Assembly: GCA_028583605.1 (NCBI GenBank)
Contig: CM053333.1
Coordinates: 9,299,638 to 9,363,637 of the forward strand
Reading direction: 5' to 3'
Length of the DNA: 64,000 nt
From: Dastarcus helophoroides
Lineage: Eukaryota > Arthropoda > Insecta > Coleoptera > Bothrideridae
Shown here: positions 1 through 55,520 of the stretch, piece by piece
Layout: each line of letters opens with the position of its first letter
Position numbering within the stretch: position 1 is the first letter of the stretch
The notes under the pieces: model-generated
Database searches by the model: none
Seen by the model: only the letters and a program-made list of their open reading frames with translations
What the model was told of the DNA's origin: nothing
Translations under genes and position numbers: made by a program

Positions 1-3000
1 TTTCTTTCGTTTCTCAAAATTTGTCTTGTCCTAGAAATTTTGACTAATACTTCAAAATTTGATATTTTATGTTTTTTACATAATTTCCACTTACAGTGGA
101 CAATTTTCTTAAAATGTCAATTATTTCTGAAAATTTCGTCCTGTTTTCATAATTTTCGGGCTTCAAAAATATTTTTTTCGAATTTTCAACATTGTACGAG
201 AATTTTCGAAAGGTTGAGTTTTTATTTTAAATATCATTTTGTAAACATTAAAACATTTCTCAAAATTGGCTTTTTCTTGAAATTCGCCTATTTCTATATT
301 ATTCTTAAAAATTTTACTTTCTCCCTCAAAATTAAACTTTGTCTTAAAAATTTTGACTTTACTTTAAAAAATTTCAACCTTTTTCTCGACATTTCGAAAT
401 TATTTTTGAAAAATCGTTACTTTTTTCAAAATCCATTTTTGTAATAATCGGATTTTTTTAAACATTCCTTTTTTGTAATTTAACTTTCGGAAATTTATTG
501 TTTTTAAAAATTTGTCCTAACCTCGAAATTTTGACAAAATGCTATGTTTTTGACAATTTCTACTTACAATGGGATATTTTCTCAAAATTTCAATTTTTTT
601 TCAAAATTCTTTATTTTTCCAAAAATTGGATTGATATTTTAATAAAAATCTAAGTTTCTGAGAATAACATTTTAAGAAAACTTTAAAAAAAAGATTATTG
701 TGAATTTCAAAATTATGACAAAATTGAAATAAGGTAAAAATTCTGAGAATAATATTTTCGGGGGTTGATTTTTCTCTCTCAATTCGACTTACAATTAGTC
801 TGGCAATCGCCACATTTTTCACGAATTTTTGTTTTATCGAAATTTCGACAGTTTTCGAAGTTTATATTAGGTTTTCAACAAGTTAGGCTCTGTTTCCAAA
901 TTTCAAATTTAATTTGAAACTTCTATCCCCCGGTTCATTAAGTAGTAGCAGTTAAATGAAAATATACCTATATTTAAGCGGAACGTTTTCCAGTTTTCTT
1001 TTATTTTATTAATTTTTCAAAATGATTCTTACCTCTCCCTGAACAAAATCCTGCCTACGCTCGTGAAGAGACATTTAATTTGTAGTTGGGGACAAAGTAA
1101 TATTCAAAATAATCAATAATTTTGTATCTTGTTAATTGTGGTTTTGACCTTTTAATGCCGTTTTTAACGCAGTTTGCCTTTTTAATGCCTTGTTTATCTG
1201 TTTGTTTTTGCCTAATTTCACATTTTTCTCACCTTTTTACCTATTTGATTGTGCCTAAAATCCGGTCTTTAATTATAACCATTAATCTAGTCGCAAAATG
1301 AAAAAATGTGTCAATTAGCCGCACATTGCAAACTCCAGAGAAGCATTCCTTCTACGACGCGACACCGAGACCCTGGCCGACTAGTAATATCTCATTAAAT
1401 AATTTACTTTCTCTATCACTTGTAACAGTGAATAAATCTGACTTAAGAAGAATATATTAAATTAAAGATAAAAATACTTTGAGATTTTTTCACTTTTTTG
1501 TTCATGTTCCATTTAAGTCTCACTTCTTTCAATTCGTCACTATTTTTTGGGGGCCAAATGTGTTTACGCCATTAATTGGGTAAACCTTGTAACTTTCGAA
1601 GTTGTAAAACCCAAATTGAAAAGTTTAAGCTTGGACTTTATTTGCCGTCGTACAAAACGTAATCGATGTGAAGGAAAAGGGGTGACAAGTGCAAACAACC
1701 CTTTCAAATTACTCTTAGAAAAGAGGCAAGAAACCGTTGCACCGCGTCGGACGAATTGAAGCCCAGTGAAACATTCTAGTGCTTTTCCACCTTTATTAAA
1801 AACCTGTCTGCTTGAAATTGTTAAGCAAGTTTTCTGTGAAATTTCAGGAAGCGACGGTTAATCGAAGGGAGAGGATTATTCGTTGTTGTCTATCCATTAA
1901 TGTCGCGATAAAGACGAAGTTTCTAATCGATTAAACGCAACAGAACACAGTGCCTGACATTGTCGAATTTGACGTTATAAAGCAAAACATCAGTCCTATT
2001 TTGATCAGCAAATTTATACACAAACACGCGCTACTACTTTTGGCATTTCGATAACGAACCTAATTAGCCGAGAGCGAGGTAACATTGACCGAGACCTTCT
2101 GAACTTTTAGGAGACTAACAGCATCAGCAATCCATATGAGGAGTTTTAGAACTTGATTTAATTAACTTGCTAATCATATTACTCTTAATTTACTGCACTG
2201 TTTGTAACCGAATTTTCCTTTAGTTCCCAGAAACGCTATTACATTTTTTTACCTTGGGGCAAATTCTACGCAAATTTGCTCGCATAACTTTTTGACAGCA
2301 TGAAAATGTAATTTTCTCTGAAACGATATTTTCTATCCAGGCTTTTATTTCAACATAATTTACCAGAAAACTCATCGGTAGTTTCGATGCCCATCCACTA
2401 TGTCGCTTCGGACGGCGGCTACCGAACTGCCCTGGGGAAATAACAACAGGAAAGCGCATCCACCATTTGTTAGCCAAACTCCCACTTATTATCACAATTT
2501 AACAAGAAAATCGCAGATAAATAACAGCAAATCATTGTATAGCTAGCTATTCAAGAGTTTTATTAACAAAACTTTAAGATAATCAAACTTTTTAAATATG
2601 TGGCTTTCAGAAATTTCTGACAAAATGTGAAAATCAACGAAAAACTAAAAGTTCCAAACTACCTCAGTTTCCGATTAATCTCAAAATTTCCGTAGAATCC
2701 GCAGAAATATGGAAGTTTAGAGGGATATTTTATTATTATTGCTTTTTTTTTTCGAATCGAAATCGAGAAGAAATATTCTAGTTTAAAAATCATAATTTCG
2801 AGTGAAACTTCAAAAATTTGCCTTTAATATAAAACCATACTTTCTTTAGACATTATTTTCTCAAAAAATCGATTTTTTTGTCTAGAAACTCAAGTTTTAT
2901 TTTTACGTAACAATGATTTTCCGAAATTTGGACTTTTAAGGCAAAATCGAAACAGTAAAAGTGATTTCATGCTGAAAACTTTAAATACTATAAAAGATAA

Positions 3001-5088: not shown

Positions 5089-5100
5089 TATCGCATTAAA
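5089..5100. repeat. Target-site duplication (left), F1 copy 1
   Basis: TATCGCATTAAA is repeated identically at 5544-5555 and brackets the F1 element. Confidence 0.85.
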
Positions 5101-5155
5101 TTCTAAAATGCACAGACCAATAGGTTTGAACATTTATTAGATTCGAAGTTTAGAA

Positions 5156-5198
5156 ACCAAATACCGGTTTCGATCTTGTTAGATCTCGTCAGTTTGGT
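5156..5198 (-). ncRNA. F1 hammerhead ribozyme, intact
   Basis: On the - strand: stem I strand ACCAAA, core CUGACGA, stem II GAUCU/AGAUC with loop AACA, core GAA, stem III ACC/GGU, cleavage nucleotide A (GUA site), then stem I strand UUUGGU. All 6 stem I pairs and 5 stem II pairs are Watson-Crick. Beyond an AUAU/UU internal loop, stem I continues as UUGG/CCAA in the family; the loop-side bases in this copy differ slightly. Stem III is a six-base palindrome without a loop, so activity would be expected mainly as a dimer. Confidence 0.85.
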
Positions 5199-5300
5199 AT
5201 ATCCAACTCGAATGCTAACAAATGTTCCGACAAGTAAGTACTACTGTCAATTTTTTAGTACTTACTTGTCGGAACATTTGTTAGCATTCGAGTTGGATAT

Positions 5301-5343
5301 ACCAAACGGACGAGATCTAACAAGATCGTAACCGGTATTTGGT
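5301..5343 (+). ncRNA. F1 hammerhead ribozyme, mutated
   Basis: Mirror copy in the right arm of the hairpin. Stem I, II and III strands are kept. The first core reads CGGACGA instead of CUGACGA (U4 to G) and the second GUA instead of GAA (A13 to U), so it should be inactive. Confidence 0.75.
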
Positions 5344-5543
5344 TTCCAAACTTCGAATCTAATAAATGTTCAAAGTTATTTGTCTGTGCATTTTAGAATC
5401 CTTGTCTTCTGGGAACTTTCCTAGAGAGCAACCGCTTTGCTAGGTGGCAGTGTTTCATTTGTTGGTAGTTCAGCTACTTATGATTCACTATACACGCTTG
5501 GAGGGCTGCATGAATTTGTAGTCTAGGTTGCATTCTACTTGAA

Positions 5544-5555
5544 TATCGCATTAAA
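5544..5555. repeat. Target-site duplication (right), F1 copy 1
   Basis: Right-hand copy of the 12-bp repeat TATCGCATTAAA found at 5089-5100. Confidence 0.85.
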
Positions 5556-12756: not shown

Positions 12757-15746
12757 CTGTCGTATTTTTTTGAAATGTCAGCTTTCCTGATTTAGATTTT
12801 TATTGTTTTCTTGAATTTTAAATTTATTTTCTGTCAATGAAAATATTAAATTCAGTGCAGTAGCTAGCTTTCACCGGGTCCCGTGATAGATGTTAAATTT
12901 AGGTAAAACAACGATTTAAACAATTTTTGAATCTCAGAGACCGAATTATGGGATATTTGACGCAAGCAACGAAGGAAGCGATTAATCCGACTCTAATATT
13001 CTTAAAAAATTGGGAGACGAAGTTTTTAAGTTATATTTACTTCTAGTTTCTATCTACTTTGAAATTAATTTCTACCCACTTAGGTTTGTGTCGACTTTAC
13101 ATTTAGTTTAGTGTTCGTCAAGCTGTTGACTTTTCTTAAAGAGTGCAGTTGTGCAAAAAGGAACACTACAATTTATCTATTTAAAACGCAAGTGAATAAT
13201 AGTGCCATAATTTTATTTTGAGTTTGATCAAATATAATGTGGGCAAAGTACATTCATACATACAGTTTAATTTCAGGGCCTATTTATATACTTACTTATT
13301 CAAAATTAATCCCTTTTGAATATACATACATAACATACATTTAAATTTAGAATCCGTCAGATTAATGGAGCTTGAGATAGAGTGTTATAAATAATAGTTA
13401 AAAATAATTTCCGACATTGTGCTTCAATAAATATAAAAGATTCATATGGATAAAAAAATAAATAAAATATTATTCTGGTATCGTACAATTTTGAAACCTA
13501 GTTCAATTACCATCTGGAATGATGCAAATATTAGGACAATAAGTCAGCCCTTTAAATTTATTAACCGACTAGATAAACATAAACATGGAAATATAGTCTG
13601 AAGTCGTTGACCTAATTTTAGAATTGATACTCATTAAATCGAATAAAAATAGGAAAATTATCATTGCCTTGAACTTTTAAGCATCATCAAATATTTTACG
13701 CCACTTTGTAACAGCCAGGGGATAATCAAAATCCCCCCGCTGTTCAGAAGATGAAGTAACCAATTAATATATTATTTGCATCTTTAAATAAATACCAAGA
13801 TTTATTTTAAGTTATACATATTTACGTCGCCTTTATTCAGTACATGAACTCACCTCAGATTAAACCAAAAATAATTAGTCTACTTTCTGTACTAAAAGGG
13901 ATTTAGTAGCAAAACTGTCGTCTTATGTTGATTAAATGAAAACACATGTTGTACGATTTATCGAAAAACATAAAAGAAATTCCTAAAGTTATATTTATTA
14001 TCATTATGTGTTTCATCTGAGATTTCAGATTAATAAATTATTCTAAGCATCCAAAGTCAAAAATTTTGAAATATGGGGTTAACTTAGAACGTCGACCACT
14101 GGCGCTCTCCAGGAAAATTATTATGACCGCTGAAACAACATTGATTCTGCTTCCGCTAGTAATTTGGCAATTTGAACCACTTTCCCGCAAATGTTTACAT
14201 TTTCATCGGCAGATACTAAATAAAAATCTTGTAGTTCTGTCAAGTTGTCGCGTTAAATTTATAACTAATGATGTGTAAAGGACACACAACATTTCCACGA
14301 TGGCATTAAACTGCAAACCAACAAAAATATGCATTCGTCACCTATTTTCCTCCACTTTTTTTTAGCTTTAGGAGACGAAAATAACACCTAAGTTGTTGAA
14401 TTACGATCATACTTGAAATATTCCACATAGAACGCTACTTAAGCTATAAATAAATAAATAATTCCAATGTCAACATCTCTCCATTAAATAATTCTTTTCA
14501 CTTTGATCTTGTAGATCAGATTTTTATTTTTAAGAATGCGATGCGAAAGAGATAACTATGGTAATTAATTTAATTTCAGGATTAATAAAGAGCGCTTTAA
14601 AAGGAAGTGTAAGAACGCATGTTGACAAAAATTCCTAAAAAGTAATACTTTTTCTGTGTTTACGCAAAAACAAAATTATTTTTCAAGGAAACGGTTTTTA
14701 TTGAATTACATTGTTTGCTCCAAAACGTTAAATTGTATAAATATAAGGGCGGCAAAGTGAGGTTGACAGCAAAAATAAAACCACTTAGCTTCACATTCCC
14801 CGCACCCTTTTACTCGCTTTCCCCCTTTTTATCCCTTCGCCTTTGTAAATCGCCAGCAACTTAATGCTTCTGCCTCAACCAACTATTTATTTACACTTCC
14901 CTGGCAGTTAAAACTTCCAATAATGCGTTTTTTATAGCGCTTTCCACGGAAAATTAATATTTTTGTCAAAGGGATACTTTTAGACTGCCAGCTCTCTTAC
15001 AATATCAACATATCAAGTTCGATTAAATTCGCTTCAATACTTCGATTTTTGTGAAACTTTTAAGTCTTTTATACTTTTGCAGCAGGGGCGGATCCTGAGG
15101 AGGCAGTAGGGGCGCTTTCTCCCTCGCCTGAGATGCCGAGAAGTTGAAAATAAAAGAAATGTTTGCTGTCGTGCACAGTGGCGGCTGGCACCCCCAATTT
15201 CGCTTACGAGTTTTTTTTCAAAATTTCTCAAAACACTTTTCATTACACAATTTTTTGTAGACATTTTAAATTTTCTCTGATTTCTTTTTATAGAAATTTT
15301 AGAAATTACAATTTCAAAAATATCTAAATCCAACTCATTTCGCATTTTACTATTTCTCTAAAAAATAGGTTAATATGGTATATTCCAATTTTCTCCTCAA
15401 ATCTCATTTTGTATAAAAATGTTGAGTTTTGTTCAGATATTTCGATTATTTTAGAAAATTTTTATTTTTTTCTGCAAAGTTTCCATTTTTCCTAAATATT
15501 TTATAAAAAGAAATGTTTTTGAAATTTCCATTTTTCCTGAAAGTGTTGTTCTTAAAATTTCTTTTAGAAATTCCAACTTCACCAGATTTTTCTTTCTGTT
15601 CCTCTAGTTTGCTTTAAAAATATCAAGCTTTTTCACGACACTTTGACAATTAAAAGTTCGTTTTATTTTGTAATTTTGTCACCCAATGGAGGTTTACTCT
15701 CTTGGATACTTATACGACTGACTAACGGCTTTAAGTTGAAAGTGTA
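12757..15746. other. Gene-free AT-rich DNA
   Basis: No gene recognised. A GC-richer stretch near 15080-15200 (CAGGGGCGGATCC..., then CAGTGGCGGCTGGCACCCCC) resembles ends of decayed hAT elements, but only tens of bases are preserved. Confidence 0.45.
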
Positions 15747-15811
15747 TACAACCACCGTACCATGCTGATGAGGCCAAGGAAGGCCGAAACTAGTCTATGG
15801 TTGCGGTTGTA
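15747..15811 (+). ncRNA. Canonical type I hammerhead ribozyme (F4)
   Basis: + strand, in order: outer stem I strand 15747-15753 (UACAACC), internal loop 15754-15758, inner stem I 15759-15764 (ACCAUG), core CUGAUGA 15765-15771, stem II GGCC/GGCC at 15772-15775 and 15782-15785 with a six-base loop, core GAA 15786-15788, stem III ACUAGU 15789-15794 (palindrome), cleavage base C15795 (GUC site), inner stem I 15796-15801 (UAUGGU), loop UGC, outer stem I 15805-15811 (GGUUGUA). Every helix is paired (one G-U) and every invariant core base is present. Cleavage is predicted between 15795 and 15796. The loop-less stem III suggests dimeric folding. The frame running through it from 15762 is not a gene. 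Confidence 0.92.
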
Positions 15812-16879
15812 CATATTTTCAATTTTAAGCACGTTTAACTATTTAATTACAGAACATTTAATTGGTCATTTGTCAAAATTAGATGAAAGTAAAGTCGCAC
15901 CGAGGACGTTTGTATCTATGAATGTTGCGACGCAACCCTTGATACAAGCTTTGCCTCATCTACGTGAACTTTGCAATTGCAATCTAGTTTTCATTAGATT
16001 CTAATGAAATTAAATTTTAATTGCATCGTAATAAACTTTTATATATTCGTATATACAAGGCTTATTATCTTTGTAATTTTGATAAAAAATATTTGGAAAA
16101 AATCTGAAAGCTCTATAAAAATTTGAACATTTTGAAAAAACAAAAAATTTCGTCTTTTTTGTAAAGATATTTCAATTTTTTTTTCAAATTTCGATTTTTT
16201 CTCCAAGAAATGTTGCTTCTTCTTTCTATGCAATTTGTGTTTTTCTCTAAACATTCTATACCAGGATTTTTTTTTAAATTTCGACTTTTCCTGGAGATTT
16301 TGTTTTTAAAATATTTTTTCGTGTAGAAATTTTGATTTCTCTAATTTTTTTGGAAATTTAAACGTTTTTTAACGAAATTTTAATATTTTAAAGGTCATTT
16401 TATATTGTAAAAGAAAGCAGAGCATATTTTTAAAAAAAGTTGAAATTTCTTGTTAGCATACAACATTTTTCAAAAATAAAAAATTACATTTTCGGAATTA
16501 AAGAAAAAAATTATTGAAATAAATTATTTGTCAAAGATATTCTTATAATTTCGCCTTTTAAAGTGGGAATTATTGAAATTTTTGAGAAAAAGTGTCAACA
16601 TTTCTAGAAGAGTCTAAAAATTTTCAAATTAAAATTAATTAAAATGTTGAAAAAAATTCATTAACAATTTACTGTTCTAATTTAATTTTTTTCTAGTAAT
16701 TTTGAAGTTCCAGAGAACTTTTAAAAATCAAATATTCCAACTTGAAATCAATTCTATCTTGGTTATCTTCAATTTTTGAAGGACCAGTCCGTTCCACCAA
16801 AATCCGAGTTTGGTGAATTTTGGTGTGCAAATTTCGACCTATTAGAAATTTCAAATTAAACTCAAAATCAATAGATTAT
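15812..16879. other. Gene-free region, probable remainder of F4 element then AT repeat
   Basis: About 15812-16020 is less simple in sequence and may belong to the element that carries the F4 ribozyme; its limits could not be set. From 16060 on it is T-rich degenerate repeat. A scrambled F3 fragment (GGACCAGTCCGTTCCACC) sits at about 16745-16800. Confidence 0.45.
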
Positions 16880-27304: not shown

Positions 27305-28877
27305 CTCCAAGTTTCGTTCAAGTAGAAAGAAAATTAGAAAAAAGAAAACATTTTGCGTTTGATGTCGAAATTTCAAGAACTAGTCTCTGTCAAGAACCAA
27401 CAATTTAGTTGGTTTAAATTTTTTTAAAATTCAAAATAAAAACTATTTAAAATAAGTTATTAATATTTCGAGTTTAAATTGAACATTTTTCTCTATATTT
27501 AGATATTTTCTAGAAATTTTAAAGTTTCGAGTTTAAAAGTCAAAAACTAGGGATGAACGAAATTAGTTGGGGCGAATTTAGAATTAAGAAGTCGAATTTT
27601 TAAGAGAAAATCCGAATTCTGGTTTGAAGTCGAAATTCTAACTTTGGTAGCAAGAGTACTTAACACCGAAATATCCAGAATTCTTTTTTGAGATTTTTAC
27701 TTTTAAAAATGGCAAGTTGGAGCCTAAACATTTTCCTCTTTTTACGAAATATCGACTTTAATACCAAAATTTCGATTTTTATGCAATGATTTTGAAGAAT
27801 AATGTTCCAAAAGTCAAAATTTTCATTGAAAAATTTGATTTGATCTCTTTTTATAGTTTTGAATTTAAATTTGAAAATTCGGGATTTTTTTTGGGGAATG
27901 TTGATTTTATTTTAAAAATTTCGACACTCAAAATATCGAGGGTTAAATAAAAAAACGATATTTACAATTCTTTGTTAAAATCATTGGTGATTTTTTCCGC
28001 AAACTTTTTTAATTTCGATCTAAATCAATTTATATTTGCCATTGTTACATTTTTTGTTTCAACTCCGAAATTTCTAATGCACACACCAGTAGGTTTTTGA
28101 ACATTTATTAGATTCGAAGTTTGGAAACCAAGTTTCGTTTAAGTAGAAAGAAGATTAGAAGAAAGTCAACGTTTCTCGTTTGATGTCGAAATTTCAAGAA
28201 CCGACAAGTTATTCGGTTTAAATTTTTTTTTTAATTCAAAATAACAACTATTTAAAACAAGTTATTAATATTTCGAGTTTAAATTCAACATTTTTCTGTA
28301 TATTTAGATATTTTCTACAAATTTTAAAGTTTTGAGTTTAAAAGGGAAAAACGAAATTAGTTGGGGCGAATTTAGAGTTAAGAAGTAGAATTTTTAAGAG
28401 AAAATCCGATTTCTGGTTTGAAGTCGAAATTCTAACTGTGATAGCAAGAGTACTTAACACCGAAATATCCAGAATTCTATTTTGAGATTTTTACTTTTAA
28501 AAATCTCAAGTTTAAGTCTAAACTTTTCCTCTTTTTACAAAAATATCGACTTTAATCCCAAAATTTCGATTTTTATTTTATGTAATGATTTTGAAGAATA
28601 ATGTTCCCAAAGTCAAAATTTTCATTGAAAAATTCGATTTGATCCCTTTTTGTAGTTTTGAGATTAAATTTGAAAATTCGGGATTTTTTTTTTGGGGAAT
28701 GTTGATTTTATTTTGAAAATTTCGACACTCAAAATATCGAGGGTAAAATAAAAAAACTAAATTTACAATTCTTTGTTAAAATCATTGATGATTTTTTCCG
28801 AAAACTTTTTTAATTTCGATCTAAATCAATTTATATTTGCCATTGTTAGATTTTTTGTTTTAACTCCAAAATTTCTA
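27305..28877. repeat. 0.8-kb tandem duplication
   Basis: Unit 1 (about 27305-28129) and unit 2 (about 28126-28877) are direct repeats, both opening CCAAGTTTCGTTNAAGTAG. Unit 1 ends with a 5' fragment of an F1 element (28078-28128) that stops inside the stem I strand of the ribozyme at CCAA. Unit 2 runs into the complete F1 element at 28873. The duplication therefore arose after F1 inserted, with a breakpoint at CCAA shared by both sites. Confidence 0.85.
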
Positions 28878-28927
28878 ATGCACACACCAATAGGTTTTTG
28901 AACATTTATTAGATTCGAAGTTTGGAA

Positions 28928-28970
28928 ACCAAAGACCGGTTTCAATCTTATTAGATCTCGTCAATTCGGT
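28928..28970 (-). ncRNA. F1 hammerhead ribozyme, mutated core
   Basis: Helices I (with one G-U), II and III are kept, and the cleavage triplet is GUC. The core reads UUGACGA rather than CUGACGA (C3 to U), which should abolish cleavage. Confidence 0.75.
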
Positions 28971-29298
28971 ATATCCAATTCGAATGCTAACGAATGTTCC
29001 GGCAAGTGTGTACTAAAGAATCAACGGACGTCAAGCGTGTGACAGCACTACCGTTACCTATTGGTCCATAGAGGAACTATGGCCATCGCCAACAAGTGTC
29101 GTATCCAAGTAGAATATAACCTGAACTGCAAATTCATGCAGCCCTCTAGGCGTGTATCAATCAGAGGTAGCTGAACTGCCAACAGTTGAAACATTGCTAC
29201 CTAGCGAAGGAGCTGCTCTCTAGGAAAGTCGTCAGAAGACAAGGATTCTAATACCCAGACCAATGAGTTTGAACATTTATTAGATTCGAAGTTTGAAA

Positions 29299-29335
29299 AC
29301 CAAAGACCGATTTCGATCTTGTTAGATCTCGTCAA
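29299..29335 (-). ncRNA. F1 hammerhead ribozyme, truncated
   Basis: Stem II and GAA are intact. The core is again UUGACGA, and the 5' strand of stem I is lost at the inversion breakpoint. It lies exactly one monomer (371 bases) from 28928. Confidence 0.7.
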
Positions 29336-29453
29336 TGGCCATAGTTTCTCTATGGACAAATGGTGATAGTAGAGCTGAGAGTCACACGCTCGACATCTGT
29401 TGATTCTTTAGCACTTTTTTGTCGGAACATTTGCTAGCATTCGAGTTGGATAT

Positions 29454-29496
29454 ATCAAACTGACCAGATCTATCAAGATCGAAGCCGGTCTCTGGT
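29454..29496 (+). ncRNA. F1 hammerhead ribozyme, mutated core
   Basis: The core reads CUGACCA (G8 to C) and the stem III start is changed (GCCGGU). Stem II GAUCU/AGAUC is kept. Predicted inactive. Confidence 0.7.
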
Positions 29497-29714
29497 TTCC
29501 AAACTTCGAATCTAATAATATTCAAACCTAATTGATCGGTGTGTTAGAATCCTTGTCTTCTGGGGAATTTCCTAGAGAGCAACCGCTTCGCTAGGTGGCA
29601 TTGTTTCAACTGTTGGTAGTTCAGCTTTACCTATGATTGATTACTAGATTACTATACACGTCCTAGAGGGCCGCATGAATTTGCAGTTCTACTTATTCTA
29701 CTTGCATCCAAAAT

Positions 29715-30350: not shown

Positions 30351-31354
30351 CAGTGTTTCCCAACCGATATGAGTAGTGTACCTAGGAGAGTTCTGGCGCA
30401 CAAAAAGGCGGGAAATTCAAATTCCGACGCATGCACAATTGGTTTAGTTGTATAACTACTTGTCTAACAGTTGGTTTGACTTGTCCAGCAGTTGGTTTGA
30501 GTTGTACAGCTATTTGTCTAACAGTTGATTTGACTTGTACAGCTACTTGTCTAACAGTTGCTTTAATTTGTACAACTACTTGTCTAAGAGTTGGTTTTAG
30601 TTGTACAACTACTTGTCTAGGAGTTGGTTTGACTTGCCTAACAGTTGATTTGACTTGTCTAATAGTTGGTTTGACTTATATAGGTACTTGTCTAACAGTT
30701 GGTTTTACTTGTCTAACAGTTGGTTTTAGTTGTGCAACTACTTGTCTAGGACTTGGTTCGACTTGTCTAACAGTTGGTTTCGGTTCTACAACTCAAACCA
30801 ACTGTTAGACAAGTAGTTGGACAACTAAAACCAACTGTTAGACAAGTCAAACCAACTCCTAGACAAGCAGTTGTACAATTAAAACTAACTGTTAGACAAG
30901 TAGTTGTACAACTCAAACCAGCTGTTAGACAAGTCAAACCAACTGTTAGACAAGTAGTTGTACAACTAATCTAATTGCGCATGAGTCGGAATTTGAATTT
31001 CCCGCCTTTTTGTGCGCCAGAACTCTCCTAGGTACACTACTGATGTGTTACTACACACTGGTGTGTCACGACATACTAGTGTGTCTCCGAAAGCTCTCAG
31101 GTGCGTCGCCAAAATATTAGATGATCATAAAAATTAAAAACTCTATAATAATAACATGTTTTTAGTCAAAAAAATGGGTACACGATCATGAGGATGTTTT
31201 TTGGTTTTCAAAAATTTATTGGGAGCTCGTGAGATTATGAAAATATTTTTTTTTCTGGTCGTCAAAAAATTCTTAGATGATTAATGCGCGTTACCCCTTT
31301 TTACACAACACCAAAAGTGTGTCGCTTCCAAAAATAAAAGGTTGGGAAACACTA
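30351..31354. mobile_element. Non-autonomous hAT element with palindromic minisatellite
   Basis: A 1,004-bp element with terminal inverted repeats CAGTGTTTCCCAACC / GGTTGGGAAACACTA and an 8-bp target duplication CTTTAAAT (30343-30350 and 31355-31362), diagnostic of the hAT superfamily. No transposase is encoded. Subterminal segments near 30375-30430 and 30980-31040 are inverted copies of each other. The core is a minisatellite that changes strand in the middle (30437-30975). Confidence 0.9.
30437..30975. repeat. Head-to-head (palindromic) minisatellite
   Basis: In 30437-30786 the + strand repeats units built from CTTGTCTAACAGTTGGTTTGA, some extended by an AGTTGTACAACTA block. From about 30787 the same units continue as reverse complement (CAACTGTTAGACAAG). 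The frames on both halves (Thr/Cys/Leu-rich and Gln/Val/Lys-rich) are products of the repeat, not genes. Confidence 0.9.
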
Positions 31355-32634: not shown

Positions 32635-33152
32635 AATCGAAATAGTGATGCACAAAATTTTTAAAACATCAATGCTGTATTCAATTGATGTATCGAAAAA
32701 GATATATCGATATATTTCGGTAAATTTATTCGATATTCGATGTATCATATAAATACAATACAGCAGGACTTCTCAAGCAACGAGACAAGCCTCTCATAAT
32801 TTCCCTGTTTTAAAATGCTTACTTTTTAATTTTTATTATTTTGAATTGTCGATTTTTTAACAATTTTTGACTTCTTCAAAATTAGACACCATTTAATAAA
32901 AAACTTCCGCTTCTCTTTATATCTTCGGTTTTGTTTTATTATACTTAAAAATTTTCAAAGAAAATCTGATTTAAAAAAAAAACAAATACCCAAAAAGTTA
33001 ATTTTTTTTAAAAAGTAAACATTTTAAGAAATGATTCATTTAAAAAAATTGAAAATATTCAACAAAAGTTTATTTCTTGAAAATTATTTGAAATGTTGAA
33101 GTTTTAAATATAATCCTTCAAAAACATTTTAAATCTTTAAAAAAGTAGAAAT

Positions 33153-33300
33153 TGGTGGAACGGACTGGTCCTTGGTTATCTTCGAAAATTGAAATACAAA
33201 AATTGTCCCCTGAAACCAAGAAAGATTAAAAAACACAACAAAGGTTGCTCTAAAGCGTTTCGACAAACAAGTTGTCATCTTCAGAAAGAAACTGAATCTA
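33153..33300 (-). repeat. F3 repeat copy 1
   Basis: A single-orientation copy of repeat family F3, beginning GGTGGAACGGACTGGTCC on the + strand and ending in a hammerhead-like core. Other F3 copies or fragments are at 33670-33965, 59226-59315 and about 16745-16800. Confidence 0.7.
33248..33288 (-). ncRNA. F3 hammerhead-like motif, copy 1
   Basis: - strand: core CUGAAGA, one extra U, stem II GACAA/UUGUC with a five-base loop, core GAA, degenerate stem III (ACG/CUU), U at the cleavage position, then AGAG pairing with CUUU upstream (one G-U). Stem II differs from copy 2 by paired changes. Confidence 0.6.
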
Positions 33301-33669
33301 ATTTTAGTATGTCTTTATATTTTCCTAATTTATCAAAAAAACAAAATTTTTATATTTTCCATATCTAATTTTTGGTCTCCTATTTTTCATTATTCCTATT
33401 CTATGTAAAATAAACTAACCTCTTAATTTGTAAACTGTCATGAAGTGACGTTTTCAATAAATTTAAATATCGCGTAGTCGCATTTCAAAAATTGTTTAGA
33501 AAATTGTCAAAAACCATAAAAATTTAAATATTTCCAAACTGGGCCGAAGAAATGTTAAATAAATTGAAAAAAACATAATATTTCCGGTCAATAAGGGTCT
33601 ACCATGAAGAATAAACTAATTTTAGTAGTTACTTTAAAGAAGAGATTCCGTTTTATAGACCGGGAAGCC

Positions 33670-33965
33670 ATAAGTTTGGTGGAATGGACTGGTCCTTGGT
33701 TATCTTCAAAAATTGAAATACAGAACTTGCCCCTGAAACCAAGAAATACTAAAAAACACAACAAAGCTTGCTCTAACGCGTTTCGACAGCTAAGACAAAG
33801 AGTAGTATCTCTCTGAAGATGATAGCTTGGCTGTCGAAACGCGTTAGAGCAACCTTTGTTGTGTTTTTTTAATCTTTCTTGGTTTCACGCGTTAGAGCAA
33901 CCTTTGTTGTGTTTTTTTAATCTTTCTTGGTTTCAGGGGACAAGTTCTGTATTTCAATTTTTAAA
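33670..33965. repeat. F3 repeat copy 2, palindromic
   Basis: The left arm (about 33674-33797) and the right arm (33813-33965) are inverted copies. The right arm also has a direct duplication of about 49 bases starting ACGCGTTAGAGCAACC (33839-33887, then 33888-33936). The axis of symmetry lies inside the ribozyme. Confidence 0.75.
33809..33849 (+). ncRNA. F3 hammerhead-like ribozyme
   Basis: Stem I CUCU 33809-33812, core CUGAAGA 33813-33819, extra U33820, stem II GAUAGC/GCUGUC around loop UUG (33821-33835, one U-G pair), GAA 33836-33838, palindromic stem III ACGCGU 33839-33844, U33845 at the cleavage position, stem I AGAG 33846-33849. The extra base after A9 departs from the consensus, but such an extra base is known in a natural viroid hammerhead (CChMVd plus strand, an extra A). 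Confidence 0.65.
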
Positions 33966-34753
33966 GTAAAAATTGTAAAAAAATTTAAAAAATTGAAATT
34001 TTAAAGAAAGCGGAAATTCTCCAGTCAAAATTTTCAAAAAGGTCAAAATTTTGAAAAATTTCTAAGCTTTCATGGAAAGTTAAAACTTCTAAAAAAACTC
34101 ATAGATTTAAATAAAACCAACATTTTAGAAAATGGCCAAATTTTTGAAAAAAAGGTTTATATTTTTAAAAATACTCTAAAATTTAAGAAATATTCGAAAT
34201 TATGAAGAAATGTCGAGATTTAAAACAATTGAAGAATTTTCAGTGAAATCTCCTAAAAACCCAAATTTTTGAAAAGCTCAAATTCCGAAAAAAAGTCAAA
34301 ATTATCAAAAATTTCGAAATTTTTCTTAATTAGAACGTTAAGAAAAAAGTTACAAATTTCAAAACTGACAATTTAAAAAAGTCGAAGTTTTCAAAAAAGT
34401 TAAAATTTTCAAAAGAAAATCAATATGTTGAAAAAATCCACATTATGAAAAAAGTTTAAATTTTCGAAGAAAATTAAAAACGCAACGAAATTTTTACAAA
34501 ATAATCCAAAATTTTAACAAAACCCAATTTTAAAAAATCGATATTTTCAGATAAAAGCGAAATGAGAAAGTGGAAATTTTTGAAAGCCAAATTTTTGAAA
34601 AATGACGAAATTTTTATAGAAAATTAGGATTTAAAAAAATCGAACTTTTGAAAAATAATATCAACATTTTGAAAAGATACTGTTCAAAGTTGATCTTTTT
34701 AAAAAATTCAAAGATTTTGATAAATTAAGAAATTTTTAAAAAAACTTTTAGAA

Positions 34754-36890: not shown

Positions 36891-37990
36891 ATTTTGATAA
36901 TAAATTCAAAATTTGGAAATTAAGTCAGAATTATAGAAAAAAATTCATTAAAACAACTTCTGATTTTTCCAGAGAAGTTGAAATTTCAGAAATTTTAAAT
37001 TAAAAAATTGAGGCGTTTAAAAAGTCAATTTTTTCAAAAAGATTGACTATTCGATAGGTTGTATAATATTAAAAAAAAATTGTAATTTTCATTAAGGTGA
37101 AGTGGGCACAGTTTTGAAAAAAGTTGAATTTTTCGAAAAAGTCGAAAGTTTGAAAAGAGGCGGAATTTTAAAAGTCGAAATTTTATAAGTCGAAATTTTA
37201 AAAGTCGGAACTTTGAAATAAGTCGAAACTTTGAAAAAAGTCAAAATTCGAAAAAAAAGAATGAATTTAAAAAGGCAGAAATTTCAAACAAAACTGAGAT
37301 TTAAATAGTTGATTTATTTAAGCAAATTAAAGTGATGGCTGTGAAATAGTGAATGGGATCACGTGACATATTAGCTGGTCCCTAGAGATTTTCTTTGAAC
37401 TGATTTCACCGATCGATACATCGAAACGAAAGTATCGGAACAAAAATATCGAACATCGAAACAAAAACGTTGATGTTTTTGACACATCGATGTATCGTGT
37501 GCATCCCTAAATCGAAGCCAAAAGTTTTTCGAACATTATATCTTCGCTACGTAAGCGAGACCGCTAGGCTGCCAATATTCGTCGATTTTTAGCATACACT
37601 GTACGCGTGGATACAATAATACAAATCTCAAAGTAGCTTTCCAGTAGATTTTCTGAGCCGACATCAGTGCAATACACTTATGCGACAGAATGTTCGTACA
37701 AAACAGGTTGTTAATGGAACTCCGCGATCCGACTCGATTGGTAAAAGCTGCTATGTTGCTATTACTTCAAGATGTTTCCCTAACGTGCTGAATGAAGCAT
37801 CGAAATTCTATGATTCAAATTGCTAAAACGGTACCGCTAGTTATTCACAATATCACTCTATATATTATATTATTTTTTTATCAGAATTTATAGAAAGGCT
37901 GACCGCAAAAAATTAAAATCTCTTTGAAAACATACTTTCGCCTAGATATACTTCTTCCAGGATTGGACCGTGTCAAACAACTACTAAAAG

Positions 37991-38035
37991 TGTTCGACGT
38001 TTCGCCCACCATCTTAGGGGGCTTCTTCAGGAACA
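37991..38035 (-). ncRNA. F2 hammerhead-like ribozyme (left arm)
   Basis: - strand: stem I UGUUC/GAACA (5 bp), core CUGAAGA, extra A, GC-rich stem II (GCCCCC/GGUGGGC with one mismatch), core GAA, stem III ACGU (palindrome), cleavage base C (GUC). All invariant core bases are present; only the extra A after A9 is unusual. Confidence 0.7.
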
Positions 38036-38279
38036 AAGAAAAGAAACAATAAATAAAAAGAGAAATATAAGGGAATATACAAAAATGAGAGAATAAAAAG
38101 GCCAATTTCAAAACATCAGAGCACGGTAACTTAGTATGTCCACCATACCAGAGGCGAAACTCTTCTGAATTGAAAATTGGTACAAAGGATAAGAAAGTTT
38201 AGACAGAAAAGCACTGTAACTCAGTATGTCACCATACCAGAGGCGAAAATCTTCTTCAGAAGAGTTCTTCGGAATATCC

Positions 38280-38630
38280 ACGCTGGAGGACTTCTGACCT
38301 AGTGTGGCCAGTTTGAGACGTTCTTCAGTTTCTCAACAAGGTTGGGTGGCTGAATGAATGACCAAGGAGATCTGAATCACATGGATAGCAGAATGGGCCC
38401 GGAAAGGGTGGCCTAAGTGCTGGCCTAAACTCTAGACAACCCATCTCGGATCCAGAATCCAGAAGTGTTTTCTGACATATTAGTTGTTTTCAAGATACTC
38501 CTGGTTTAAACCCGAAGCCCGAAGGACGTCTTAATCACAGAGATAGCACAATGGGCCCGGAAAGGGTGGCCCAATTGCTGGCCTAAATTCTAGGCAACCC
38601 ACCTCGAATCCAGAATCCAAGAGCAAGATT
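38280..38630 (+). mobile_element. LINE 3' tail fragment
   Basis: The + strand matches the 3' end of the LINE on the - strand at 43127-43805: the last codons of the ORF (QFLNKVGWLNE-like, stop) and a 3' UTR with GGGCCCGGAAAGGGTGGCC. Part of the UTR (about 38385-38460) is repeated at 38540-38620. It is flanked on both sides by inverted F2 arms. Confidence 0.8.
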
Positions 38631-38912
38631 TATTGTCAAGAAATTAGTTGTTGATCATGAGCAAGACAAAGAAAAAGCAATACTTTTCATCAGAAGAGTT
38701 TCGCCTCTGGTATGCTGGACATACTGAGTTACCGTGCTCTTCTTTCAAAACTTTCTTATGCTTTGTACCAATTTTCAATTCAGAAGAGTTTCGCCTCTGG
38801 TATGGTGGACATACTGAGTTACTGTGCTCTGATGTTTTGAAATTGGCCTTTTCATTCTTTTATTTTTGCATATTCCCTTATATTTGTCTTTTTATTTTTT
38901 GTTCCTTTTCTT

Positions 38913-38957
38913 TGTTCCTGAAGAAGCCCCCTACGATGGTGGGTGAAACGTCGAACA
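38913..38957 (+). ncRNA. F2 hammerhead-like ribozyme (right arm)
   Basis: Stem I UGUUC 38913-38917, CUGAAGA 38918-38924, extra A38925, stem II 38926-38944 (closing pair changed to G-U), GAA 38945-38947, stem III ACGU 38948-38951, C38952, stem I GAACA 38953-38957. Predicted cleavage between 38952 and 38953. Confidence 0.7.
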
Positions 38958-39053
38958 CTTTTAGTAGTTCTTTGACACGGTCCAATCCAGAAAGAAGTAT
39001 ATCCTGTACTGACTCTGGCCGTGGAAGCCTTCGTTATCACATATTTTTGCCTA

Positions 39054-43995: not shown

Positions 43996-44300
43996 GTACA
44001 GGATATACTTCTTCCGGGATCGTGTCAAAAAACTACTAAAAGTGTTCGACGTTTCGCCCACCATCGTAGGGGGCTTCTTCAGGAATCAAGAATAGAAACA
44101 ATAAATGAAAAGAGGAATATGCAAAAATGAAAGAATGAAAAGGCCAATTTCAAAACATCAGAGCACGGTAACTCAGTATGTCCACCATACCAGAGGCGAA
44201 ACTCTTCTGAAATGAAAATTGGTACAAAGGATAAGAAAGTTTAGACAGAAGAGCACGGTAACTCAGTATGTCCACCATACCAGAGGCGAAGCTCTTCTGG
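43996..44300 (-). mobile_element. F2 element, single orientation
   Basis: A 305-bp F2 copy flanked by TTACTCTTAAA (43985-43995) and TTACTCTCAAA (44301-44311). The paralogous sequence near 56550-56590 (TTTCAAGTTTACTGTTTAAA) has the site without the insertion, which confirms both ends. A partial internal duplication of the CACCATACCAGAGGCGAA block lies near 44185-44290. Confidence 0.85.
44043..44087 (-). ncRNA. F2 hammerhead-like ribozyme (third copy)
   Basis: Same core as the other F2 copies (CUGAAGA, extra A, GC-rich stem II, GAA, ACGU, GUC). Stem I is weakened to three pairs by a change in the upstream strand. Confidence 0.65.
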
Positions 44301-50019: not shown

Positions 50020-51898
50020 TTTTTTTAAAGTTTAATCCACTCGCAAAGGGTAACCTCATTATGCTTTCAAAGCACTGCGAGTAGGATGCGGAAACAAGCA
50101 TAGATGGCGAAGAACCGCCTTCCTAAACAAGGATAAGTTATGATTTTTGGGGAAAATTCCTTTCGGTAACAAGTTCCATAACTTCGAAGTTCTATAGAAA
50201 AAAGAGTCTCCGTAGACAGAAGTCCTCACTGTGTCAAGCTGGACCGCACAGGAATTTGCTGTCTCCGACTGTCTAAAAAGCCTCAAGAATCTTGCCCTTG
50301 GGGGGATTAATCCTATTAGTTCCTGCGAGCATCTTTCATGATAGTACTTGTAGAAAAGAGACAAGTCACCAACCATACGCCTGTGTTCTAGTGTTTCGAG
50401 AGAATCGGTCAGACTCTCGTCATCAATTAGGCGATTCGCTCTTCTTTGAATTGAATCCAAGAGAGCCATGAGAACAGTATTCTAGTGATGGCCTAACTTG
50501 AGCTTTGTATAGTGTTAATAGCTGATGAGATGTGAAGCACTTTTTAGCTCTAAAAAGAAAGCCTTGCTTCTGAGAGGCGGATTTGGCAATGGCGCGCACA
50601 TGATCGTCCCAAGAGAAGTTGGTGCTCGCATTTACTCCTAGGATAGATAGATTAGATCCCATCGGAAGGATTTTACCTTCCATTAGTATGTTTGTTGCAT
50701 TATCCCTTGATGTTTTCTTAAAGAAAACCGCGGCCTGAGTTTTTGAAGCGTTGAAATCGACCAAATTGTTCTTACCCCATTCCAGAATAATCTCGAGATC
50801 CCGATTAATCTCCTGTATCTGCTGTTCCCTTAGTCGATCTGAAACAGCGATAGATAATGGTTTGTCGGAGAAAAAAGATGACACAAGGTTACTATCATTT
50901 GCGCAGCTGTATATAGGATTGAAAGTTGAAGCTAAGAAATCGTTTATATGTAACAAAAATAGAGTAGGAGACAGAACAGACCCCTGAGGCACCTCTGCGT
51001 TAATCCCAAATGTCTTGGATGAGATGCCATCGACAACGACATGGAGAGATCTGTCAGCGAGAAAATTGGATATCAAATGACAGAGTCCAGGAGGAAGACC
51101 ATAAGATGTTAATTTAACGAGAAGAGGTCGGTGCCAGACTCTGTCGAAAGCCTTTGAGATATCCAATGCCACAATCCTAGCCTCTCCATATTTTTCCATA
51201 GCTGAGTTACAGATATGAGTAACATATACCGGTAGATCGCCAGTGAAACGTTGTTGTCTAAAACCCTATTACCTGTCGGAGATGATTCTATTTTCCTCCA
51301 GATATTTGAGAATCTCGATGTTGATAACCTTTTCCGCCACTTTAGATATAACGGGTAACAAAGATATAGGGCGATAGTTGTTAGGCAAATTCCTTTTTCC
51401 CTTTTTAGGGTCAAGCTGCCCTCTAACAGATTTCCAGATATTAGGGAATACACCTTTGTTGTAAGAGAGTGTGAACAATTTACTTAGGACAGGAGTCAAC
51501 TCTGGGGCGCACTCCTTCAGAACAATAGTGGGAATACCATCAAGGCCAGAAGCTTTCGAGGTGTCTAGCTCAAGGAGAATCTTCCTGATTGTGCGTTGCC
51601 TGAAAACAACTTCAGGCATCGAAGTGCCAACCTTAGGAAGAATAGGAGGTTCTACGTTTGGAGAATCAAGATTAGAATTTTGAGCAAACATTAAGGTTAA
51701 CATGTCAGCCTTTTTCTTGGAGGTAGTAGCAATATTACTATTTTCATCGAGTAAAGGTGGAAAATTTGAAGGTGTAAAATGCTTTCCAATCAACTTTGCA
51801 AATTCCCAAAAGGACCTGGAAACGTTCGGACAGTTGATAAGCCTCTGGCGCATTTATTTTAACGATAAGCTGGAAATACAAAAGAATCCCTTGTAGCA
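50020..51898 (-). pseudogene. Non-LTR retrotransposon reverse transcriptase, decayed
   Basis: The - strand codes much of a CR1/Jockey-group reverse transcriptase: a linker (SRSFWEFAKLI), RT motifs SKASGLDGIPTIVLK, NNYRPISLLPVISKVAEK, VALDISKAFDRVWH, VPQGSVLSPTLFLLHINDFL, thumb region, and a C-terminal ALLDSIQRRANRL segment ending at 50059. It is 5' truncated at about 51898, inside the linker before the RT domain. Lesions: two adjacent in-frame stops (51266-51271) after RIISDR, one frameshift near 50465, and the catalytic YADD box reads CAND. The 3' end, with a T-run then AAAGTTTAATCC, is shared with the tail at 17135-17369. Dead element. Confidence 0.9.
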
Positions 51899-53879: not shown

Positions 53880-54460
53880 TAAGTCTTTGTCTTCTTTGTC
53901 TTCCAATCTCCATATGGGGTCAGGAATATTTTCCTCTTACCCCTTTGTCGCTCTGTTCTGTTTAAGAACTTTTACAACCTCACTTGTTTATTGCTGCTCT
54001 TTTCCCTCTTTAGAGATTCAGACCTTTCATGTCTTTCTCTCTTGCGTTGCAGATCTTACTCATCTGCTCGTACCGATAGTTACTCTTTTGCCTCTTTTGA
54101 GATTTAGACCTTCCATGTCTGCCTCTCATCTGCTGCAGATTTTACCCTCTGCCTTTGTCTCTCTTTCTGTAAAACATCCTCTTAATGCGCGTGTGGAACA
54201 ACTTGTTTTTCGTTCGCCTACTAGCCATTTTGTCTTGCCCTCGGGAAACCACAGTAAAACCCGAAGTTAATAGACTCCCTTATCTTCTTAAGACCATTCT
54301 AGGTCTTTTGCATCTTGGATAATCTTGCGGTTCATAATCCACTACTTCCCTGAGTAGCCGATTTGGGTGTACTTCAGCTCTATCAATCTCTCTTCTTGCG
54401 GCTTTTTTACCGTTTCTTCTATAGTTTCTATTTGTAAATCTTCATGAATTCTTAGGTTGG
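53880..54460 (-). pseudogene. Jockey-like LINE, 3' part of ORF2 and 3' UTR
   Basis: Continues the reverse-transcriptase C-terminus of 55245-55520 after an F1 insertion: - strand LRIHEDLQIETIEE, then, after a one-base frame change in an A-run, REIDRAEVHPNRLLREVVDY and PRCKRPRMVLRR, stop at 54280-54282. About 400 bases of 3' UTR follow, with two imperfect repeats of a GACATGGAAGGTCTAAATCT-type unit, ending in a GAAGACAAA-rich tail near 53880. The + strand frame at 53848-54270 is an artefact of this UTR. Confidence 0.8.
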
Positions 54461-54664
54461 TATGCAAGAAGAATGCAACCTAGACTACAAATTCATGCAG
54501 CCCTCCAGGCGTGTATAGTGGAATCATAGGTAGCTGAACTACCAACAGTTGAGACACTGCCACCTAGCGAAGCGGTTGCTCTCTAGGAGAGTTCCCAGAA
54601 GACAAGGATTCTATAATGCCACAGACCAATAGGTTTGAACATTTATTAGATTCGAAGTTTGGAA

Positions 54665-54707
54665 ACCAAATACCGGTTTCGATCTTGTTAGATCTCGTCA
54701 GTTTGGT
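54665..54707 (-). ncRNA. F1 hammerhead ribozyme, intact
   Basis: - strand: ACCAAA, CUGACGA, GAUCU-AACA-AGAUC, GAA, ACCGGU, A, UUUGGU. Same fold as 5156-5198, all core bases present. Stem I continues past an AUAU/UU internal loop with UUGG/CCAA. Predicted cleavage after the GUA triplet (complement of 54671). Confidence 0.87.
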
Positions 54708-55147
54708 ATATCCAACTCGAATGCTAATAAATGTTCCGACAAGTAAGTACTAAAACATTCACAGGCGTCGAGCGAGTGACTTTTTAGTACTACCACCTAT
54801 TGGTCCATAGAGAAACTATAGCCATCGCCAACAATGTCGTATGCAAGAAGAATGCAACCTAGACTACAAATTCATGCAGCCCTCCAGGCGTGTATAGTGA
54901 ATCATAGGTAGCTGAACTACCAACAGTTGAGACACTGCCACCTAGCGAAGCGATTGCTCTCTAGGAGAGTTCCCAGAAGAAGAATTTGTAGTCTAGGTTG
55001 CATTCTTCTTGCATACGACATTGTTGGCGATGGCTATAGTTTCTCTATGGACCAATAGGTGGTAGTACTAAAAAGTCACTCGCTCGACGCCTGTGAATGT
55101 TTTAGTACTTACTTGTCGGAACATTTATTAGCATTCGAGTTGGATAT

Positions 55148-55189
55148 ACCAAACTGACGAGATCTAAAAAGATCGAAACCGGTATTGGT
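55148..55189 (+). ncRNA. F1 hammerhead ribozyme, intact core
   Basis: + strand copy in the inverted half. Core CUGACGA 55154-55160, stem II GAUCU-AAAA-AGAUC, GAA 55175-55177, ACCGGU, A55184. One U is missing from the 3' strand of stem I (UUGGU), which leaves five pairs. Confidence 0.82.
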
Positions 55190-55244
55190 TTCCAAACTTC
55201 GAAGCTAATAAATGTTCAAACCTATTGGTCTGTGCATTATAGAA

Positions 55245-55520
55245 TCTTAGGTTGGTTACAAACCAGGGAGCGTTGGCTATCATCCTTAGCGTTATGTTCT
55301 GTACTGTTTGTAGTATATTCATGTTTGATTTTGCTGTATATCCCCAGCACGCTGCACCATAAGTCATTATAGATTGTATAGCTGCTTTGTAAATTAGTCG
55401 TTTGTTTCTCAGACTTAGACGGCTTTTTCTGCACAGAAGCGAATAAATTCTTGTCCTTGCCATCATTGCTTTCTTCTTAGCATGTTCCATATGTTTCCTG
55501 AACGTTAGCTTTTAATTCTT
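55245..55520 (-). pseudogene. Jockey-like LINE reverse transcriptase C-terminus, 5' part
   Basis: - strand: LTFRKHMEHAKKKA, then RIYSLLCRKSRLSLRNKRLI (thumb-like region), AIQSIMTYGAACWGY and LQTVQNITLRMIANAPWFVTN, typical of the segment after the RT fingers/palm in Jockey elements. It is cut at about 55520 on the 5' side and interrupted by the F1 element on the 3' side; the rest lies at 53880-54460. Confidence 0.85.

Follow-up and report, generated by a model that had tools for sequence, protein, structure and literature searches.

What kind of element carries the hammerhead motifs near 54.5 kb of the 64,000-nucleotide stretch of the Dastarcus helophoroides genome analyzed here (the window), and which machinery inserted it? 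A sequence-only reading had assigned the repeat, called F1, to a retrozyme-like mobile element, an assignment borne out by its type I hammerhead, 377-nt non-coding monomer, tandem units, target duplications, and thousands of dispersed cores. We consider F1 to be a non-autonomous metazoan-type retrozyme moved by co-resident Penelope-like element (PLE) machinery, a reading to which we give a probability of roughly 80%.

Self-comparison of the window found the three related F1 insertions that had been claimed, at about the coordinates given for them (about 5100-5545, 28876-29707, and 54460-55246). They had been described as tandem monomers, but self-comparison and arm mapping resolved each one into two arms of opposite orientation, placed head-to-head and with a fixed, differing start site at each end. 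The focal insertion (54460-55246; locus L062) is flanked by a 12-bp target-site duplication, TCTTAGGTTGGT, at 54450-54461 and 55245-55256, as determined by comparison of the flanks. Its left arm (54460-54980) comprises 1.4 monomers with the sense sequence on the minus strand and the outer end at monomer position 209 (site Y), and its right arm (54982-55246) comprises 0.7 monomer with the sense sequence on the plus strand and the outer end at position 63 (site X). The two ribozymes at 54.7 and 55.15 kb, previously taken for a direct tandem, sit on opposite strands within a 215-nt inverted repeat of 98% identity. The reported monomer spacing of 371 and 379 bases with one ribozyme each was correct in that a direct repeat at 379 bp exists, but the repeated stretch is ~143 nt long and carries no ribozyme, because the left arm extends to 1.4 monomers. 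Both ribozymes had also been called intact. The left one (54648-54719, minus strand, 34.4 bits with Rfam HH9) is fully so, with an intact core, the palindromic stem III ACCGGU, and predicted cleavage after GUA; the right one (55136-55206, plus strand, 29.4 bits) has an intact core but lacks one base of stem I just past the cleavage site.

The other two window copies are built in the same two-armed way. The 5.1-kb insertion lies between 12-bp duplications, TATCGCATTAAA (5089-5100 and 5544-5555, by flank comparison), with a minus-strand left arm (5100-5243, X end outward) whose hammerhead at 5139-5210 has an intact core, and a plus-strand right arm (5244-5545, Y end outward) whose hammerhead lies at 5289-5360. 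The 28.9-kb insertion, flanked in the same comparison by the 8-bp duplication TCCAAAAT (28865-28872 and 29707-29714), has an older minus-strand left arm (28876-29334, 86% identity, X end outward) with hammerheads at 28911-28982 and, broken, at 29289-29343, and a plus-strand right arm (29335-29707, 83% identity, Y end outward) with a hammerhead at about 29457-29489 that gave no Rfam match. A complete hammerhead in all three insertions was therefore too much to claim: hammerhead-like motifs occur in each, but several cores are altered, namely those of the plus-strand copies at 5.3 and 29.46 kb and of the minus-strand copy at 28.9 kb (at C3). The flanking repeats had been given as 12, 8, and 11 bp; the first two lengths stand, and the third is 12 bp. 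A 96% copy of the left flank of the 28.9-kb insertion together with its first ~57 bases (28820-28932) also lies 800 bp upstream, at 28019-28131.

For comparison among copies, a unit of the long array L075 was used as the reference monomer and numbered so that position 1 is the base directly following the predicted cleavage site. This monomer is 377 nt long with 42% GC and, as had been stated, encodes no protein, its longest open frame being 72 codons and its longest from an ATG 25. The hammerhead is composed of stem I ACCAAA/UUUGGU, the core CUGACGA and GAA, stem II GAUCU/AGAUC, and stem III ACCGGU, with predicted cleavage after GUA or, in many older copies, GUC. Its topology is that of type I, and the plant-type set of a type III hammerhead, LTR, and 4-bp duplication was not found in F1. 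The covariance-model search that had been proposed as a check gave a mixed outcome: Rfam HH9 (RF02275) aligned to the F1 motifs of the window and ran end to end over the hammerhead, yet every score (34.8, 34.4, 29.4, 27.7, 25.2, and 18.6 bits) lay below the gathering score of 52, and the Rfam scan of the 64-kb window gave no match above gathering. When the window was scanned for strict type I hammerheads, the F1 motifs at 5192 and 54701, both on the minus strand, were recovered and the one at 55.15 kb was not. With RF00163, a single match of 32.6 bits (locus L001) was obtained among 73 scored of 91202 candidates in the genome. Since stem III is a gapless palindrome, a reading of the sequence allows a hammerhead on its own no more than a single pair, with CCGG as the loop it closes. 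The axolotl/newt hammerhead type with such a stem III is reported to cleave much better as a dimer (PMC7229834), and by analogy the F1 hammerhead may act as a dimer.

Further hammerheads and hairpins were observed alongside F1. A second hammerhead family, with a palindromic stem III, is represented at window 15746-15818 on the plus strand (CTGATGAGGCC..GGCCGAAACTAGT; 25.5 bits with HH9); its copies are 98-100% identical over 140-141 bases among 40 matches scored of 1153 candidates, and a degenerate motif akin to it was seen in locus L041 at about 1289-1335. A long hairpin at window 30702-30852 gave sub-threshold matches to several miRNA models and is probably a fold-back repeat. A degenerate hammerhead pattern matched three contigs in a scan of viral contigs.

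The family is abundant in the 539-Mb assembly of 50 contigs. A 31-base F1 core has 2,456 exact copies and, with up to three mismatches, 7,127 copies (about 7,100), the latter figure being possibly too low, as some places with exact copies are absent from the mismatch-tolerant listing; both figures count cores rather than insertions. The reversed core pattern, used as a control, had no copy genome-wide. Among the matches listed, insertions were dispersed on contigs C1-C13, and many copies were 98-99% identical in DNA sequence to the focal one, which indicates that the family was recently active. Two loci, L101 and L104, are arrays of an older subfamily with a common set of differences from the young monomer, and five of the seven units of L101 have C at the cleavage-site base. 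A COX1 search of the same genome returned six matches, two of them strong, close together, and containing TGA codons; at C3:12967862-12970609, on a chromosome-sized contig, lies a cytochrome oxidase I-like stretch rich in TGA codons, perhaps a mitochondrial insertion.

The two-armed structure was followed in 40 mapped loci: 30 of 39 sites grouped by eye among the matches listed (including the focal one), seven from a further search, L001, and the two other window copies. These were mostly the best scorers against a two-armed query, and the sample accordingly favors two-armed copies. The arms point outward by their sense 3′ ends, and the outer ends fall near monomer position 62 (X) or 208 (Y) in the numbering given above. 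Both kinds of end, one X and one Y, were present in 30 of the 31 two-armed insertions with both ends mapped, the sole exception being L096 (Y/Y); the X end of L080 lies away from 62, at 71. Nine loci were left unclassed as single-armed, aberrant, or cut (L073, L079, L083, L084, L085, L094, L095, L101, and L104), L083 because its left end extends beyond the fetched stretch. A separate by-eye inspection of 100 listed places among the 2,456 exact cores gave the same polarity, with opposite-strand cores less than 1 kb apart ordered minus then plus in all 12 cases. Target duplications of at least 8 bp flank 29 of the 34 loci for which both flanks were available (12 bp in 18, at least 11 bp in 27), compared with 70 of 1957 mismatched flank pairs, for which the mean was 5.2 bp; L073, L079, L080, L084, and L096 have no duplication of that length. 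The duplications exceed 4 bp, as do those of metazoan retrozymes where present, and the element ends abut them with no A-tail or simple tail of the LINE/SINE kind.

At the inner joins, in contrast to the outer ends, no fixed position was found. Joins occur at irregular positions that vary among loci, as do the arm lengths, which reach ~5.5 monomers in L075, with head-to-tail 377-bp units inside some arms. An overlap of at least 3 nt was present at 12 of the 25 minus/plus joins, against 5.4% expected for random joins, and extra bases replaced the overlap at six. Fold-back self-priming of a single cDNA was ruled out as the source of the second arm, the inner ends of the two arms being unrelated positions. 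Long inverted repeats, fixed outer ends, and a narrow range of duplication lengths would also suit a fold-back or MITE-like DNA transposon with a chance hammerhead-like motif, but in F1 the outer ends are two different points of one tandem unit, arm length and inner join differ from copy to copy, the differing joins being unlike fold-back, and arms extend to about 5.5 tandem units, which makes that explanation very improbable. Spread of satellite DNA via recombination would account for the head-to-tail 377-bp units of some arms; with the insertions dispersed over C1-C13 and target duplications at 29 of the 34 loci examined, we regard it as scarcely tenable.

Judged by its sequence, F1 has the genomic features of a metazoan retrozyme and is not itself a PLE, the monomer having no coding potential for a reverse transcriptase or GIY-YIG domain, and its insertions are PLE-like, with head-to-head arms, a tail at one end only, and a short duplication. 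The genome contains at least 91 GIY-YIG matches at E ≤ 0.001 (150 scored of 1070 candidates). One resident family, P1, is Penelope-like with RVT_1 and GIY-YIG domains, has frames without stops of up to 814 aa, and has 3′ ends at two points ~38 nt apart; its protein found no match in a PDB search. Neighboring opposite-strand P1 copies were ordered minus then plus in 10 of 10 pairs among 100 matches listed. In the five of these pairs whose ends were fetched, one end of each kind was present every time, with duplications of 12, 12, 12, 12, and 15 bp, compared with 3-7 for unmatched pairs. The picture was less clear at three further P1 loci, of which L033 has an X/Y pair with 9 bp and L035 and L056 show no convincing duplication. 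A second family, P2, has a pseudo-LTR insertion in L037 whose arms differ in tail length and whose duplication is 11 bp long. Counted by hand on the sequence, the distance from the predicted cleavage site to the X end is about 62 nt in this P2 insertion, matching F1, and in P1 the X end follows a degenerate hammerhead-like motif by about 55 nt. The same end rule and duplication length thus occur in F1 and in a resident PLE.

Sequence similarity between F1 and these elements is slight. Comparison of F1 with the PLE loci gave weak matches at most (best E 0.044, over the hammerhead), and no sequence or structure recognition element common to F1 and the resident PLEs was found in the P1 and P2 loci or their folds. 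P1 matches have 79-97% protein identity to the query, while DNA identity to the focal copy is 98-99% in many F1 copies. The P1 copies thus look older than F1, and since they are the more diverged, the enzyme behind the recent F1 burst may be another PLE. In the window itself, two families of PLE pseudo-LTR-like insertions with inverted arms were recognized by eye at 33152-33975 and 37945-39003 and also near 44082, and they contain hammerhead-like CTGAAGA..GAAAC motifs with palindromic stems III (ACGCGT, ACGT). When 18 loci that contain GIY-YIG matches were scanned with Rfam, one hammerhead emerged, in L054 at 30.1 bits (2836-2908, minus strand); its stem III is a 10-base palindrome, ACATCGATGT, and from reading of the locus it appears to lie in a separate hairpin outside the PLE frame.

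A LINE could in principle produce inverted arms by twin priming (5′ inversion), as L1 does. The joins of L1 twin-priming products use microhomology, and the window contains an RVT_1 fragment (50426-51265, minus strand, E 1.7e-18) within a few kb of the focal insertion. Twin priming has been given as the origin of truncated and inverted L1 copies that lie between target duplications (PMC2837659). Against such an origin, F1 has no A-tail or simple tail, starts at two fixed internal sites, and is two-armed in nearly all fetched copies, and a resident PLE follows the same rule with the same 12 bp. We therefore consider LINE-driven copying unlikely and return to movement of F1 by a PLE.

Under PLE-driven movement, F1 arrays would be transcribed and their hammerheads would cut the RNA into 377-nt units, probably by pairing two units, given the gapless palindrome in stem III. 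The units would often be circularized. A PLE reverse transcriptase/endonuclease would then make a break with a stagger of ~12 bp, and both 3′ DNA ends would prime on F1 RNA, one at X (~62 nt) and the other at Y (~208 nt). Each cDNA would be of variable length, sometimes extending through several rounds of template, and the two cDNA tips would join, often via microhomology. In its most specific form, this model makes the retrozyme circle the shared template of both arms, copied from both break ends by a Penelope-type enzyme, with X and Y each taking one DNA end, so that nearly every insertion would have one X and one Y. On that form we hold the evidence to be about evenly balanced.

The template question was addressed with variants across the units of an array. 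If one circle is the template, a variant it carries should be present in every unit, and errors or later mutations should be present in one. For 32 loci, indels and substitutions away from alignment edges were counted wherever three or more units covered a position, which gave 14 variants in all units, 99 in a single unit, and 18 in some units. The abundance of single-unit variants indicates that homogenization of units after insertion is not rapid. The older arrays L101 and L104 accounted for six variants of the all-unit class and 11 of the some-unit class. Eight young arrays have an array-wide variant (L064, L067, L078, L079, L082, L086, L087, and L102), and in seven of them it spans both arms, L079 being single-armed. 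The variants of L079, L082, L086, and L087 each occur at a single locus. The pattern expected of subfamilies is seen for 291T>A, found in both L064 and L067, for 361C>T (L078), found in four loci, and for 14C>T (L102), found in two. Variants are mixed among units in four young arrays (one in L071, one in L077, two in L081, and three in L103). A one-unit template thus fits eight of the 12 informative young arrays on sequence grounds. Independent drawing of units from the family pool was rejected, as it misfits variants common to all units of an array.

The same element and enzyme could also work from linear, multimeric RNA transcribed from genomic arrays, the hammerhead being incidental or inactive. 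A single monomer cannot have been the template of L071, L077, L081, and L103, for which multimers must have been copied, and array-wide variants could also arise when linear RNA from a source array of uniform units is copied, so that they are support rather than proof for a one-unit template. Conservation of the hammerhead is weak: in nine older loci, 6.1% of positions differ in the hammerhead block and 9.5% in the rest of the monomer, and 119 of 377 windows of equal length are as conserved or more. By this comparison, which follows the core-against-flanks check that had been proposed, purifying selection on the hammerhead was not apparent. For the element PAc, insertion in vitro did not require the ribozyme and used mainly unprocessed RNA as substrate (PMC11167929). 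Against a linear template stand the array-wide variants of the eight young arrays, seven of them across both arms, which suit a one-unit bottleneck, together with the commonness of single-unit variants and the existence of arms of about 5.5 monomers. We judge a linear template possible, with the odds against it.

In the predicted fold of the F1 circle, the two start sites come together. The circular monomer folds at -131.1 kcal/mol, compared with -88.8 (sd 5.4) for 100 shuffles (z -7.9), and the predicted pairs 49-53/203-207 and 58-62/195-199 have pair probabilities of 0.64-0.82. This fold, computed after the outer ends had been mapped, contains an interrupted helix, one strand of which has X (62) as its 3′ end and the other Y (207). 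Covariation gives weak support to the predicted fold: of the changed pairs in old copies, 109 were kept paired (eight by double change) and 100 broken, 52% kept versus 29-45% in eight slid versions, and eight double changes versus 1-12. The arrangement was not seen in folds of P1 or P2. As a hypothesis drawn from the fold, the X/Y helix could serve as a docking site that lets one enzyme dimer seat two DNA ends.

Retrozymes and the idea of their movement by PLEs are already published. Metazoan non-LTR retrozymes have a type I hammerhead in a non-coding tandem unit of 150-450 bp with low GC (Cervera & de la Pena 2020, PMC7229834), duplications that exceed 4 bp where they occur, copy numbers in the thousands, and a stable predicted circular fold. 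PLEs were named there as strong candidates for their mobilization, since both have type I hammerheads and tandem copies and are found together (PMC7229834). An inverted, paired-end retrozyme architecture was not found in the literature searched, which was mostly the best-ranked, freely readable papers, and the words "inverted" and "head-to-head" are absent from the main text of PMC7229834. The paired X/Y ends and a 12-bp duplication as in the resident PLE provide insertion-level evidence for PLE mobilization, and the array-wide variants provide a genomic footprint bearing on one-unit, perhaps circular, templates. Two mapped start sites in an RNA of 377 nt make F1 small enough for direct PLE reverse-transcription biochemistry, and the X/Y rule and variant test are applicable to any retrozyme-bearing genome. 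If true, the shared-circle, paired-end reading would settle which machinery moves animal retrozymes and expose its RNA handle.

Non-coding repeats with hammerheads are also known from cave crickets (pDo500). The hammerhead satellites of newt and axolotl (PMC7229834) and the W-elements of Schistosoma (PMC8490949) are likewise non-coding repeats of this kind, and no paired X/Y ends are described for them in the passages covered. Plant LTR retrozymes share with F1 a hammerhead retroelement and a circular RNA, which for F1 is an inferred one, but they have a type III hammerhead, LTRs, PBS/PPT, and 4-bp duplications (PMC4918200), where F1 has type I and ~12-bp duplications. With metazoan retrozymes as described in PMC7229834, F1 shares the type I hammerhead, the tandem non-coding unit within the 150-450-bp range and of low GC, duplications of more than 4 bp, thousands of cores, and a stable predicted circular fold. 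It departs from the tandem repeats given there as the genomic form in being two-armed with two fixed start sites, and from those retrozymes in having a 12-bp duplication common to a resident PLE; where invertebrate hammerheads have a 2-bp stem III, that of F1 consists of a single pair and a palindromic tetraloop, as does one axolotl type (PMC7229834). PLEs have head-to-head pseudo-LTRs, sometimes a tail where one inverted pseudo-LTR ends, and duplications of 8-10 bp in several copies and none in some (PMC3846280). In the PLE studied biochemically, both strands are cut and extended, cDNA starts at two adjacent internal sites, and the PAc hammerhead lies upstream of these sites (PMC11167929). 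F1 differs from PLEs in its lack of a protein, its length of 377 nt, and start sites ~146 nt rather than 30-40 nt apart, and it resembles them in its head-to-head arms, its one-end tail, and its internal starts for both DNA strands (PMC3846280, PMC11167929).
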